Origin: Flavobacteriaceae bacterium
GTDB taxonomy: Bacteria > Bacteroidota > Bacteroidia > Flavobacteriales > Flavobacteriaceae
Length of the DNA: 64,000 nt
Reading direction: 5' to 3'
Assembly: GCA_021739635.1 (NCBI GenBank)
Contig: JAIPBH010000009.1
Span: forward strand, 62,001 to 126,000
In this document: positions 24,578-30,083 of the stretch, in pieces
How positions within the stretch are numbered: position 1 is the first letter of the stretch
Layout of the letters: each line of letters begins with the position of its first letter
The notes under the pieces: model-generated
Seen by the model: the letters and a program-made list of their open reading frames with translations, nothing else
Database searches by the model: none
Told to the model about the DNA's origin: nothing
Made by a program: the position numbers and the translations under genes

Positions 24578-27376
24578 TTATTTAAGCTTTTTCTTAACCT
24601 CAACTTGATGGAAGGCTTCAATAATGTCTCCTTCTTTAATGTCGTTATAGTTTTTAATTTGCATACCGCAATCAAATCCTTTAGTTACCTCTTTAGCGTC
24701 ATCCTTAAATCGTTTTAATGATGTCAATTCGCCAGTAAACACAACAACTCCATCTCTGATTAAACGAACTTTTGAATTCCTAAGAATTTTTCCATTGGTC
24801 ACCATGCAACCAGCTATACTACCAATTTTAGTAACTTTAAATATTTCTCTTATTTCTGCAGTACCAGTAATCTCTTCTTTAAACTCTGGAGATAACATAC
24901 CTTCCATAGCGTCTTTAAGGTCATTGATAGCATCATAAATAATTGAGTATGTTCTGATATCAATTTCTTCTTTATCAGCAATCATTCTTGCATTTCCAAC
25001 AGGACGCACATTGAATCCTATGATGATTGCATCAGAAGCCGAAGCTAATAATACATCACTTTCAGTAATCGCTCCTACTCCTTTATGTAAAATATTAACT
25101 TGAATCTCTTCTGTAGATAATTTTTGGAATGAATCTGTTAACGCTTCAACAGAACCATCAACATCACCTTTAAGAATAATGTTTAATTCTTGGAAATCCC
25201 CTAAAGCAATACGACGACCAATTTCATCAAGTGTGATATGACGTTGTGTTCTAACAGATTGTTCACGTTGCAATTGTGCTCGTTTTGCCGCAATTTGCTT
25301 GGCTTCACGCTCATCTTGGAAAACATTAAATTTATCTCCAGCTTGAGGCGCTCCATCTAAACCTAAAATTGACACAGGTGTTGATGGACCAGCTTCAACA
25401 ACATTGTTGCCACGTTCATCTTGCATAGCTTTAACCTTGCCACTGTTTTTCCCTGCTAACACATAATCACCAACTCTTAAAGTTCCTGCCTGTACCAAAA
25501 TTGTTGATACATAACCACGTCCTTTATCTAAGAACGCTTCAACTACAGTTCCATTAGCTTGTTTATCTGGGTTTGCTTTAAGTTCTAGTAATTCGGCTTC
25601 AAGTAGTACTTTTTCAAGTAATTCTTTAACACCAGTTCCTTTTTTTGCTGAAATATCATGTGATTGAATTTTTCCTCCCCAATCTTCAACTAATAAATTC
25701 ATTTGAGCCAATCCTTCTTTAATTTTTTCAGGATTTGCATCTTGTTTATCAATTTTATTGATAGCAAATATAATTGGTACACCAGCAGCTTGAGCATGAG
25801 AAATAGCTTCTTTAGTTTGTGGCATGATATCATCATCAGCTGCTACAACTATAATAGCTAAATCTGTTACTTGAGCACCACGAGCACGCATAGCGGTAAA
25901 CGCTTCATGACCAGGTGTATCTAAAAATGCTATTTTTTGTCCATTATCAAGTACAACGCCATAAGCTCCAATATGTTGAGTAATTCCACCCGATTCTCCT
26001 GCAATAACATTTTCTTTACGAATATAATCGAGAAGCGATGTTTTACCATGATCTACGTGACCCATCACTGTTACAATGGGAGCACGTGGTTTTAAATCGT
26101 CTTCAGTATCTTCATAAGTCTCTATAGATTCTTCAATATTGGCAGTAACAAATTCTACTTCATAACCAAATTCTTCAGCAACAATACTAAGTGTTTCTGC
26201 ATCTAATCGTTGGTTCATGGTTACCATCATACCAAGCGACATACAAGCTGAAATAATTTGAGTTACTGGAACATCCATCATAGTTGCAACTTCACTTGCA
26301 GTAACAAATTCAGTTACTTTAAGAATTTTACTTTCTGCTGCTTCTAGCTCTAAACTCTTTTCTGATTGTTCTCTATGGTGATCTCTTTTTTCTCTACGAT
26401 ATTTTGCTCCCTTTCCTTTATTAGATTTACCTTGAAGTTTTTCAAGCGTTTCTCTAACTTGTTTTTGAACATCTTCCTCGCTAGGTTCTTCTTTTAAAAT
26501 TGGGCGTCTTGGACCTTGATTATTGTTTCCTTTAAACCTATCATTTCCGCTAGGTTTATTTGGTCCACCAGGTCTGTTTGGTCCACCAGATTGTGGTAAA
26601 TTGGGTTTATTTTGATCACCACCAGTTCCGGGTTGTCCTCCAACTTTACTAATACGACGACGCTTCTTTTTATTAGCATTATCATTACTTGGTCTAGCCT
26701 CGGGTTTCTTTTCTTCTTTCTTTTTCTTAGGCTTATTAAATTGTGATAAGTCTATTTTATCTCCAGAAATTTTTGGACCAGTAAGTTTTTGATATTGTGT
26801 TTCTACTTTTTCATCTGGAACAAGAATGCCTTCGCTATTCAATATTTCACGCTTTGGTTCTGCAGGTTTTGTTTCTACAGGCTTTTGAATTGTTTCAGCT
26901 TTTGGTGTTTCAACAACAGGTTCTTCTTTGGCAATTACTGGAGCTGGCTCTTCTTTTTTTGGAGTTTCTTGAATAACTTCTTTAACTTCCTCTATTTGAG
27001 GTGCTGAAGCTTCTTCTTTCTTTTTTGGCTCTAAATCAATTTTTCCAACGGCTTTTGGTCTTGAAATAATAGTAGAAGCTCTAATAATCTCTTCTTTTCT
27101 AGCAACCTCTTTTTGTTTTTCTTCAAGTTCTCTTTCGCGTTGTTCACGTAATACCTCTTTCTCCTTAATTTTTGCTTCACTAACTTCTTGAGATGCTACT
27201 TTTTTGCTAGCATCTGTTTGAAATTCGTTTGAAAGAATTGCATGTACGTCTTCTGATATTTTAGTATTGGGACTTTTCTCTACATCAATGCCTTTAGATT
27301 CTAAAAAATCTACTGCACGATCTATAGAGATATTTAATTCCCTTAATACTTTATTTAATCTTACTGTGTCAGCCAT
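24578..27376 (-). CDS. infB: Translation initiation factor IF-2
   Basis: GTPase that delivers initiator tRNA to the 30S subunit. The 932-residue product has an IF2_N helix bundle at the start (about 1-55), a long charged, Pro/Lys/Glu-rich linker to about residue 350 typical of Bacteroidota IF-2, a second IF2_N domain, and the G domain with GHVDHGKTS (about 436), DTPGHE and NKID, then domains II-IV. The linker includes a Gly/Asn/Pro-rich patch ([12 protein letters not shown]). It is last in the rimP-nusA-infB operon, 28 bases after nusA. Confidence 0.97.
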
Positions 27377-27404: not shown

Positions 27405-28637
27405 TTATTCTTCAAATTCTTCTCTTAGAATTCTAATAACATCTCTAATTGTTTCTTCTTCTAAATCTGTTCTTTTTACTAAGTCTTCAACATCTTGTTC
27501 TAAGATGCTTTTTGCAGTATCAAGTCCAGCTTTACTAAATTCTTGAATAATCCATCCTTCAATTTCATCGGTGAATTCTGATAATTCAACATCTTCTTCT
27601 GCGCCTTCTCTAAACACATCTATTTCATAACCAGTTAATTGACCAGCTAAACGAATGTTATGTCCGCCTCTACCAATAGCTTTGCTTACTTCTTCTGGTT
27701 TTAAAATAACTTCTGCACGTTTGGTTTCTTCATTAATTTTTATTGAAGTTACTCGTGCAGGGCTTAAAGCTCTAGTGATGTATAATTGTAAATTATTAGT
27801 GTAGTTAATAACATCAATATTTTCATTTCCTAACTCACGTACAATACCATGTATTCTTGATCCTTTCATGCCAACGCATGCTCCTACAGGATCAATTCTA
27901 TCATCATAAGAATCTACAGCTACTTTTGCTTTTTCGCCTGGAATTCTAACTACATTTTTAATAGTGATTAAACCATCAAAAACTTCAGGGATTTCTTGTT
28001 CAAATAATTTTTCTAAAAATGCTGGTGAACTTCTAGACATGATAATGGTTGGTTTTGCTCCTTTAAGCTCTACACTATCAATAACACCTCTTACGTTATC
28101 TCCTTTTCTAAAAAAGTCTGAAGGAATTTGTTTTTCTTTTGGAAGAATGATTTCATTGCCTTCATCATCTAATAAAATAACTGCTCTGTGACGAATATGA
28201 TGAACCTCAGCAGTATATATTTCTCCTACTAAATCTTTAAACTGTTTGTAAACAATGGTGTTATCGTGTTCGTGAATTTTTGATATTAAATTTTGGCGTA
28301 ACGCTAAAATAGCTCTTCTTCCTAAATCTACTAATTTTACTTCTTCTGATACATCTTCACCAACTTCAAAATCGGGTTCAATTTTACGTGCTTCAGACAA
28401 AGAAATTTCTTGGTTTGGTTCTTCTACTTCACCATCAGCTACTACAATACGGTTTCTCCAAATTTCTAAATCGCCTTTATCTGGGTTAACAATAATGTCA
28501 AAATTATCATCATCACCAAATTTCTTTTTTAAGGCACTTCTAAAAACATCTTCTAAAATAGCCATTAACGTTACACGATCAATTAATTTATCGTCTTTAA
28601 ACTCTGAAAACGATTCAATTAATGCAATATTCTCCAT
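27405..28637 (-). CDS. nusA: Transcription termination/antitermination factor NusA
   Basis: 410 residues: an N-terminal RNA-polymerase-binding domain (about 1-130), an S1 RNA-binding domain (about 135-200), two KH domains (about 205-345, with VGACVGMKGSRI and AIGRGGHNIRLA motifs) and a short acidic C-terminal tail in place of the E. coli AR repeats. NusA tunes pausing, termination and antitermination. It sits between rimP (12 bases upstream) and infB (28 bases downstream), the conserved order. A hairpin in the operon leader (29116-29146) is a possible site of self-regulation. Confidence 0.96.
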   Translation of the reverse strand: MENIALIESFSEFKDDKLIDRVTLMAILEDVFRSALKKKFGDDDNFDIIVNPDKGDLEIWRNRIVVADGEVEEPNQEISLSEARKIEPDFEVGEDVSEEVKLVDLGRRAILALRQNLISKIHEHDNTIVYKQFKDLVGEIYTAEVHHIRHRAVILLDDEGNEIILPKEKQIPSDFFRKGDNVRGVIDSVELKGAKPTIIMSRSSPAFLEKLFEQEIPEVFDGLITIKNVVRIPGEKAKVAVDSYDDRIDPVGACVGMKGSRIHGIVRELGNENIDVINYTNNLQLYITRALSPARVTSIKINEETKRAEVILKPEEVSKAIGRGGHNIRLAGQLTGYEIDVFREGAEEDVELSEFTDEIEGWIIQEFSKAGLDTAKSILEQDVEDLVKRTDLEEETIRDVIRILREEFEE

Positions 28638-28649
28638 AACTCTTTTGAA

Positions 28650-29111
28650 TTAAAATTTAATCATCACTTTTGCTTCTACAATATCACTATAAGCTATAAT
28701 AGCTTGTTTTACTACTGTTACTTTACCTTTTCCTTGCGGTTTTGGTTCTCTAACTTTCCATTCTAACAAAATACCTTCTTCTGATATTCCTTTCAGAATA
28801 GCTTCCAATTTTCCTGAAGTTGTTTTAACCTCAAGTTCTCTTCCGATATTTTTATTATACTGTCTTTGGTTAACTATTGGAGATGTTGCTCCTGCTGAAG
28901 CGACTTCTAATGCAAAATCAACTTCTTCCCTATCTAGATTGTGCTCAATGGCTCTGCTTACAAACATGCAGTCTTCTACACTTACACCATGATCACCATC
29001 AATAACAATATTTATTCTATTATCATCAGAAATAGTCATGCCAATAAGAAACAAATCTGTTCTTTCAGACAATGCTTTTTCAAGTAATTCTTTGACGGTA
29101 TCTTTAAACAT
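28650..29111 (-). CDS. rimP: Ribosome maturation factor RimP
   Basis: 153 residues with the RimP two-domain plan: an N-terminal alpha/beta domain (about 1-85, including VEDCMFVSRAIE and the conserved LEVASAGATSPI) and a C-terminal SH3-like barrel. It assists assembly of the 30S subunit. First gene of the rimP-nusA-infB operon. The promoter candidate lies at 29174-29181, and a terminator-like hairpin separates it from the ATG. Confidence 0.95.
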   Translation of the reverse strand: MFKDTVKELLEKALSERTDLFLIGMTISDDNRINIVIDGDHGVSVEDCMFVSRAIEHNLDREEVDFALEVASAGATSPIVNQRQYNKNIGRELEVKTTSGKLEAILKGISEEGILLEWKVREPKPQGKGKVTVVKQAIIAYSDIVEAKVMIKF

Positions 29112-29115
29112 TTTT

Positions 29116-29146
29116 ATTATAAAAAGAGGGGACTTTCCGTCCCCTC
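29116..29146 (-). promoter_or_regulatory. Terminator-like hairpin in the rimP leader (candidate attenuator)
   Basis: Perfect 8-bp stem GAGGGGAC / GTCCCCTC (29126-29133 and 29139-29146) with a 5-base loop. On the minus strand it is followed at once by TTTTTAT, and the rimP ATG comes 14 bases after the stem. It lies between the operon promoter and the first gene. No gene ends here on either strand, so it is not an ordinary 3' terminator. It is G/C-rich against an A/T-rich background. Confidence 0.65.
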
Positions 29147-29173
29147 ATTTCTTTGATTTGCCTTACAACGGCG

Positions 29174-29181
29174 CAAATATA
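29174..29181 (-). promoter_or_regulatory. Promoter -7 element for rimP-nusA-infB
   Basis: Minus-strand TATATTTG, exact TAnnTTTG, with TTTA about 19 bases upstream. It would give a leader of about 55-60 bases containing the hairpin at 29116-29146. Confidence 0.55.
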
Positions 29182-29255: not shown

Positions 29256-30083
29256 ATGAAAAAAATATTAATACCTACTGATTTTTCTGAGCAAGCTGAA
29301 AACGCTTTAAAAGTAGCTGCACAATTAGCTAAAAAACAAAAAGCAGAAATTTATTTGCTTCACACTTTAGAGTTGCCTCTGCAAAAAATTGATCCTTTAA
29401 GTACAAACCAAAATTTGCCTGAGGCCATGTATTTCATGCAACTAGCCCATAAACATTTTGAAGGCTTATTAGAAAAAAATTACTTAGAAGGATTAAACGT
29501 GCATGAAATAGTAGAATTTTACGAGCCATTTAGAGGAGTTTATCAAGTTTGCAAAAAACATGATATTGATTTGATTGTAATGGGATCTAGTGGCACAAAT
29601 AGTTTTAAAGAAATGCTGATTGGATCAAATACTGAAAAAGTGGTTAGAACATCTGAAATACCTGTTTTAGTAGTTAAAAAAGAGCATCCTGTATTTAAGG
29701 TTAATAATTTTGTTTTTGCTTCAAATTTTAAAGACCATTACAAAGCCCCATACATTAAAGCCACTGAATTTGCTAAATTATTTAATGCAAAAATGCATCT
29801 TCTAATAGTTAATACTGCAGGTCATTTTATAACAACACATGATGCTCAAGAACGTATGCTTGAATTTGCCAAATGTGCTGATTTTGATAATTTTACAACT
29901 AATATTTATAATGACATAACTGTTGAAAAAGGAATTATGAATTTTTCTCAATCTATTTCTGCAGATTTAATTGGTATGTGCACACATGGCCGACAAGGGC
30001 TTTCAAGCTTTTTTAATGGTAGCATAAGTGAAGATTTATTAAATAATGCTAAAAGACCAGTGATTACCTTTAAAGTTCAATAA
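29256..30083 (+). CDS. Tandem-domain universal stress protein
   Basis: 275 residues with two Usp domains in tandem. Domain 1 (about 1-143) begins KKILIPTDFSEQAENAL and has the ATP-binding signature GSSG, nine residues, GS (in GSSGTNSFKEMLIGSN). Domain 2 (about 148-275) has CTHGRQGLSSFFNGS, in which the first glycine of the motif is replaced by cysteine. So domain 1 looks able to bind ATP and domain 2 slightly diverged. Double Usp proteins are common in Flavobacteria, but their targets are mostly unknown. A near-consensus TAAATTTA lies at 29215-29222. It is divergent from rimP. Confidence 0.9.
   Translation: MKKILIPTDFSEQAENALKVAAQLAKKQKAEIYLLHTLELPLQKIDPLSTNQNLPEAMYFMQLAHKHFEGLLEKNYLEGLNVHEIVEFYEPFRGVYQVCKKHDIDLIVMGSSGTNSFKEMLIGSNTEKVVRTSEIPVLVVKKEHPVFKVNNFVFASNFKDHYKAPYIKATEFAKLFNAKMHLLIVNTAGHFITTHDAQERMLEFAKCADFDNFTTNIYNDITVEKGIMNFSQSISADLIGMCTHGRQGLSSFFNGSISEDLLNNAKRPVITFKVQ

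Follow-up and report, generated by a model that had tools for sequence, protein, structure and literature searches.

The rimP-nusA-infB operon of a Flavobacteriaceae bacterium is encoded on the minus strand of the 64,000-nucleotide stretch analyzed here (GenBank assembly GCA_021739635.1, contig JAIPBH010000009.1, positions 62,001 to 126,000; referred to as the window, with all coordinates given relative to its first letter). Its short leader contains a G-C-rich hairpin followed by a T tract, located between a promoter box and the rimP start codon. This hairpin is genuine, is conserved very widely in such leaders and is most likely a terminator. The features of the locus are as follows:

29174–29181, minus strand: −7 promoter box TATATTTG of the Bacteroidota type (from the sequence)
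29147–29170, minus strand: transcript start at about 29170, inferred from the box position, and short leader to the stem
29126–29146, minus strand: hairpin GAGGGGAC-GGAAA-GTCCCCTC, a perfect stem of 8 base pairs (bp), six of them G-C (from sequence, folding, covariation and model score)
29118–29125, minus strand: U tract TTTTTATA, the predicted release point (from the sequence)
28650–29111, minus strand: rimP, with its ATG at 29111 (NF002531, 201 bits)
27405–28637, minus strand: nusA (TIGR01953, 365 bits)
24578–27376, minus strand: infB, encoding IF2, also written IF-2 (TIGR00487, 822 bits)
29256–30083, plus strand: divergent universal-stress-like gene, the upstream neighbor of rimP

The promoter box has the form TAnnTTTG, which we take to be the −7 promoter motif of Bacteroidota. 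On the minus strand, the sequence 3′ of the stem reads TTTTTATAATAAAA and is followed by the rimP ATG, with a gap of 14 bases between stem and ATG. The leader has a G-rich 5′ arm, a C-rich 3′ arm and a T stretch directly upstream of rimP, and the hairpin folds alone with −15.6 kcal/mol. A stable G-C-rich hairpin with a U-rich tract, in the window five T and then A, is the anatomy of an intrinsic terminator. An earlier, sequence-only reading had described a perfect 8-bp, G/C-rich stem with a T tail between the −7 box and the rimP ATG, which is correct for the minus strand, and the operon identity that it proposed is borne out by the NF002531, TIGR01953 and TIGR00487 matches. It had also held that no upstream gene ends at the hairpin, and since the neighbor is divergent, none ends into it in the window. 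The leader RNA of about 45 bases that it anticipated is close to the length of about 50 bases now predicted for a terminated RNA starting at about 29170. On the plus strand, the same interval (29126–29146) reads as a hairpin followed by ATTTCTTTGA and also receives a terminator-like score; in this direction, it could serve as a stop for antisense transcription out of rimP. The closest named relatives of the encoded NusA, at 95–97% identity, are those of Confluentibacter, Mariniflexile, Flavivirga, Wocania and Algibacter.

Terminator-like sites are not clearly above chance in the surrounding 9 kb (6 found, 3.9 ± 1.7 expected), and the significance of the hairpin lies in its conservation across leaders and not in the number of such sites. 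Loci were drawn from the same genus, family, order, class and phylum; among RimP-matching genomes, 7/7 were taken, with samples of 235/249, 103/148 (order), 135/149 (class) and 147/148 (phylum), and 80 further loci were added. RimP was found in 302 of the 303 loci fetched. Two loci were left out of the leader count, L101, where the contig ends before the leader and no RimP was found, and L213, which contains N; merging of identical leaders gave 286 unique ones. A leader was scored as positive if a stem of at least 6 bp with at least four G-C pairs and a T-rich tail lies within 150 bases of the predicted rimP start. The starts are predictions, and some may be wrong, which affects the stem-to-start distances given below. 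By this criterion, the hairpin and T tail precede rimP in 262/286 leaders, as against 10/2860 dinucleotide shuffles. The hairpin is found in all 103 unique leaders of the main Flavobacteriaceae set, which includes the window's own, and in 18/19 further Flavobacteriaceae, 57/67 leaders from the order search (which also contains some Flavobacteriaceae), 67/71 from the class and 17/26 from the phylum. Of the 262 hairpins, 224 pair a 5′ arm containing GGG with a 3′ arm containing CCC. The antisense strand satisfies the same criterion in 79/286 leaders, as may be expected from a near-palindromic stem with an often A-rich flank on the other side. Among the window's 50 genes of at least 90 amino acids, six are preceded by a terminator-like hairpin within 150 bases. 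Four of these hairpins are also identified as 3′ terminators of the gene before, and a fifth is the rimP hairpin read from the opposite strand, so that rimP is the sole gene whose hairpin is not explained in either way.

Both the stem and its tail are closely kept within the family. Among the 103 unique Flavobacteriaceae leaders, the stem GAGGGGAC/GTCCCCTC is identical in 92, and the remaining 11 are variants that preserve pairing (GAGCGGAC/GTCCGCTC in seven, GAGAGGAC/GTCCTCTC in three and GGGGAT/ATCCCC in one); the tail TTTTTATA occurs in 99, and the loop takes 28 forms. Further away, some Bacteroidia stems are GGGGC/GCCCC, and most stems from the phylum search are different, e.g., GTGGGG/CCCCAC. 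Between genera, both the loop and the unpaired 5′ region differ. Covariation was evaluated in an alignment of 149 mostly class-wide leaders, composed of the window, 134 distinct segments taken from loci numbered above L116, and 14 of the 78 distinct segments from Flavobacteriaceae; leaders without the hairpin, those with the stem more than 60 nucleotides (nt) from the start, and L177–L203 except L192 were omitted. Double changes that preserve pairing occur in all eight pairs, which was reached by 1/500 shuffles, while neither the number of pairing-preserving double-change cells (77, compared with 14.8 in shuffles) nor the covariation score (0.287, compared with 0.155) was reached in 500. Conservation of the stem extends to the T run that immediately follows it (means of 5.9 and 5.8 T in eight bases) but not to the 5′ flank. 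The sequence-only reading had suggested covariation in relatives as a check, and lack of stem conservation, together with an absence of short transcripts, as grounds for abandoning the idea; for the stem, what is found is the opposite, with stem, T tail and position conserved throughout the phylum and all eight pairs covarying. A telling case is L211 (G298), where nearly the whole stem is exchanged (GAGGCACGC-ACA-GCGTGCCTC) and the TTTTTATAC tail is retained, which indicates that pairing matters.

Of the 262 hairpin leaders, 245 have a TAnnTTTG box ahead of the stem, as do all 103 of the Flavobacteriaceae set, where the distance from the end of the box to the stem is 23–29 nt throughout. The position of the box argues that the hairpin is not the terminator of an upstream gene. 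In the 245 leaders, the stem begins a median of 22 nt after the inferred +1 (minimum 2, maximum 34). Contiguous pairing of at least six bases between the leader and a stem arm was found in 18/245 leaders (7.3%) and in 63/1225 shuffled ones (5.1%), and with values so close to those of the shuffles, an antiterminator or riboswitch built on such pairing was rejected. The short leader and the near-shuffled level of arm pairing make a competing RNA fold unlikely, and a protein acting at the polymerase a likely regulator. A leader peptide was likewise rejected, since the window's candidate start, an ATGAGG at the base of the stem, recurs in just 75/244 Bacteroidia leaders. Directly after the −7 box, the minus strand of the window carries a TTTGCnnCGTTG-type pattern (29173–29162), which recurs in 92/103 and 14/19 Flavobacteriaceae leaders and in 3/67, 0/71 and 0/26 leaders of the wider sets; it is possibly a second leader element, or a sign of shared ancestry.

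When genomes are searched with a model of the hairpin, the window leader scores 43.2 bits and the next best site in the same genome 29.6 bits. The exact stem occurs once in this genome. Of 15 other distinct hairpins matched there, 10 lie within 50 nt past a same-strand stop codon, and these other matches are mostly ordinary 3′ terminators; in 13 of the 15, judged by eye, the uninterrupted T run exceeds the five T of the leader. A regulon sharing the stem was rejected on these grounds. Sites at E ≤ 0.1 number 1 to 27 per genome in 120 family genomes and 1 to 37 in 114/119 class genomes, with G406 (37) and G451 (28) particularly rich. By presence alone, the model is thus not specific for rimP, which counts against an element confined to this gene. 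Among the matches listed for the 72 family genomes with a listed rimP place, the rimP leader is the top match in at least 66, and the top match lies elsewhere in two (G083 and G102). The E. coli rimP leader gives no match to the model at E ≤ 1.

A leader terminator of this kind has precedents. In the 2010 premature-terminator survey by Naville and Gautheret, rimP comes first among the genes with attenuators; the terminator there called rimP-leader has the form GGGc(...)gCCC, no antiterminator is visible beside it, and NusA is named as the best candidate effector (PMC2965389). The hairpin directly upstream of rimP-nusA-infB, the G-rich and C-rich arms, the T stretch and the lack of an antiterminator in the general form are all shared with the window leader. 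In place of the strict GGGc(...)gCCC core, the window has GGGGAC/GTCCCC, with one A-U pair between GGG and c, and some Bacteroidia have GGGGC/GCCCC. We see no tandem upstream terminator here. “Bacteroid” does not appear in the main text of the survey. In Bacillus subtilis, according to a review, NusA controls its own synthesis by stimulating termination in the nusA leader (PMC12288461). There, this negative feedback through NusA-stimulated intrinsic termination is reported from experiment, and the window leader would work in the same way; the leader lengths differ, with 180 nt in B. subtilis, as given in a passage of the survey (PMC2965389), and about 60 nt in the window. For Escherichia coli, the sequence-only reading had stated that the equivalent operon is regulated by other means. 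Regulation stands, but “other means” is not quite right, because the pertinent part of PMC6511841 places two terminators (t1 and t2) upstream of rimP and reports an increase in operon transcripts in mutants with reduced NusA-dependent termination. The E. coli terminator next to rimP is GGGC-TTTAG-GCCC-TTTTTTT.

Closer to the window, a structured 5′ element before rimP in Flavobacterium psychrophilum, stated to occur in further genera of the Flavobacteriaceae and to be missing from Rfam, is named in one sentence of a section that does not describe its structure or mechanism (PMC9723704). It is very probably the same element as the window hairpin. The Rfam family RF01770 (rimP) covers the same operon and a leader with a terminator, but the Bacteroidota element is below its cut-off: the window leader does not reach the gathering threshold of 47 bits, RF01770 is not among its matches up to E 10, and none of 148 Bacteroidota genomes has a site over the cut-off. 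The sub-cut-off matches to RF01770 (19 in 16 genomes) include none at the listed rimP places. Membership in any Rfam family was rejected, as no family reaches its gathering threshold over the leader and 15 weak matches fall far below their cut-offs. Neither rimP nor nusA is mentioned in the main text of the Bacteroides thetaiotaomicron transcriptome paper (PMC7366714) or of the 104-motif paper (PMC2864571), and among the papers listed by literature searches on Bacteroidota leaders of rimP or nusA, no other description turned up. The element belongs to the established rimP-leader type, occurs throughout the phylum and lies beyond Rfam's rimP family.

Judging from the anatomy and by analogy with these systems, we consider it probable that the hairpin is a premature intrinsic terminator that acts as an attenuator of rimP-nusA-infB with feedback by NusA. 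The two parts of this proposal differ in strength. Termination at the hairpin is most likely, given its anatomy, and control by NusA is plausible given the B. subtilis case and the earlier proposal for the rimP-leader. RNA polymerase would start at about 29170 and make some 24 nt before the stem; the GAGGGGAC/GTCCCCTC hairpin and the short, interrupted U tract would then cause a fraction of the polymerases to release an RNA of about 50 nt before rimP. By analogy, this fraction would rise with the amount of NusA, which would give NusA feedback control over the operon that encodes it. Control is likely to be exerted by a protein at the elongating polymerase, and NusA would be the best candidate. 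The interrupted U tract, with five T and then A as opposed to the longer T runs of 13/15 other model matches, is consistent with a NusA-type terminator, and the pertinent part of a study of B. subtilis describes distal U-tract interruptions as frequent in NusA-dependent terminators (PMC8060035).

Several observations weigh against this proposal. The leader hairpin is strong, unlike the suboptimal hairpins that the same part of PMC8060035 reports for the B. subtilis terminators that most require NusA. The stem lies 14–15 nt before the ATG in 87/103 Flavobacteriaceae leaders, which makes a role in translation initiation conceivable. Twenty-four of the 286 leaders fail the hairpin criterion; many of these show a weaker hairpin and T run by eye, and L191, L273 and L277 show none. 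Fourteen criterion matches lie over 40 nt away from the predicted start, and at least three of them (L166, L188 and L302) are a different hairpin. Finally, the rows of the covariation alignment were pre-selected for the hairpin, which favors pairing, and their 95.4% paired positions are partly built in; the main weight is therefore placed on the unselected count of 262/286. The failing leaders with a weaker hairpin include nine from a single related family (L231, L232 and L234–L240); these carry a different hairpin, AAGGC...GCCTT with a T run and preceded by GATTTACGG, that looks like a replacement terminator.

The hairpin might instead be a constitutive partial terminator that imposes a fixed fractional cut on operon output and senses nothing. 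Neither an antiterminator nor a sensor sequence is seen, and the other model matches are mostly plain 3′ terminators, as this explanation would have it. Still, we find it unlikely: the stem is kept more closely than pairing needs, with 92/103 identical, a weaker promoter would suffice as a fixed brake, and the B. subtilis leader terminator, as presented in the section of the review cited above, serves feedback (PMC12288461). An element of translation or RNA stability, in which the hairpin, bound or unbound, governs ribosome access to rimP or shields the 5′ end and the U run is incidental, appears improbable. It would accord with the 14–15 nt spacing and with the statement in part of PMC9723704 that flavobacterial mRNAs have no Shine-Dalgarno sequences, so that leader structure could matter; set against this are the T run, conserved 3′ of the stem where the 5′ flank is not, and the stem-to-start distance, which ranges from 7 to 112 nt over all leaders.

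That the terminated RNA of about 50 nt acts in trans as a small RNA is very improbable. The rimP leader is named among ProQ-associated, attenuator-derived RNAs in a passage of PMC5391140, yet the loop and the unpaired 5′ region vary between genera, and the 5′ sequence is shared only within the Flavobacteriaceae. The 3′ terminator of an upstream gene, or a chance hairpin, hardly merits consideration despite a co-directional upstream gene at 97/286 loci and the unremarkable number of terminator-like sites in the region, because the upstream gene is divergent at 183/286 loci and in the window, where the intervening promoter box led us to reject it, the box precedes the stem in 245/262 leaders and conservation excludes chance.

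The idea of NusA feedback at a leader terminator is not novel and has precedent. A bolder extension, which we put forward as possible but rather doubtful, is a phylum-wide NusA feedback terminator that would need just a promoter and a hairpin, which could start a few nt from +1, with the GGGGAC/GUCCCC stem itself recognized; together with the leaders of Firmicutes and Gammaproteobacteria, it would represent an ancestral bacterial control whose Bacteroidota branch is missed by the RNA-family models of today. Rfam's rimP family does not cover the Bacteroidota element. If the proposed feedback holds, the operon of a general termination factor and IF2 is under the control of a cis-regulatory RNA, conserved very widely in Bacteroidota, that works through the activity of that factor itself, and it could be asked whether NusA feedback by leader termination predates the split between Bacillota, Pseudomonadota and Bacteroidota.
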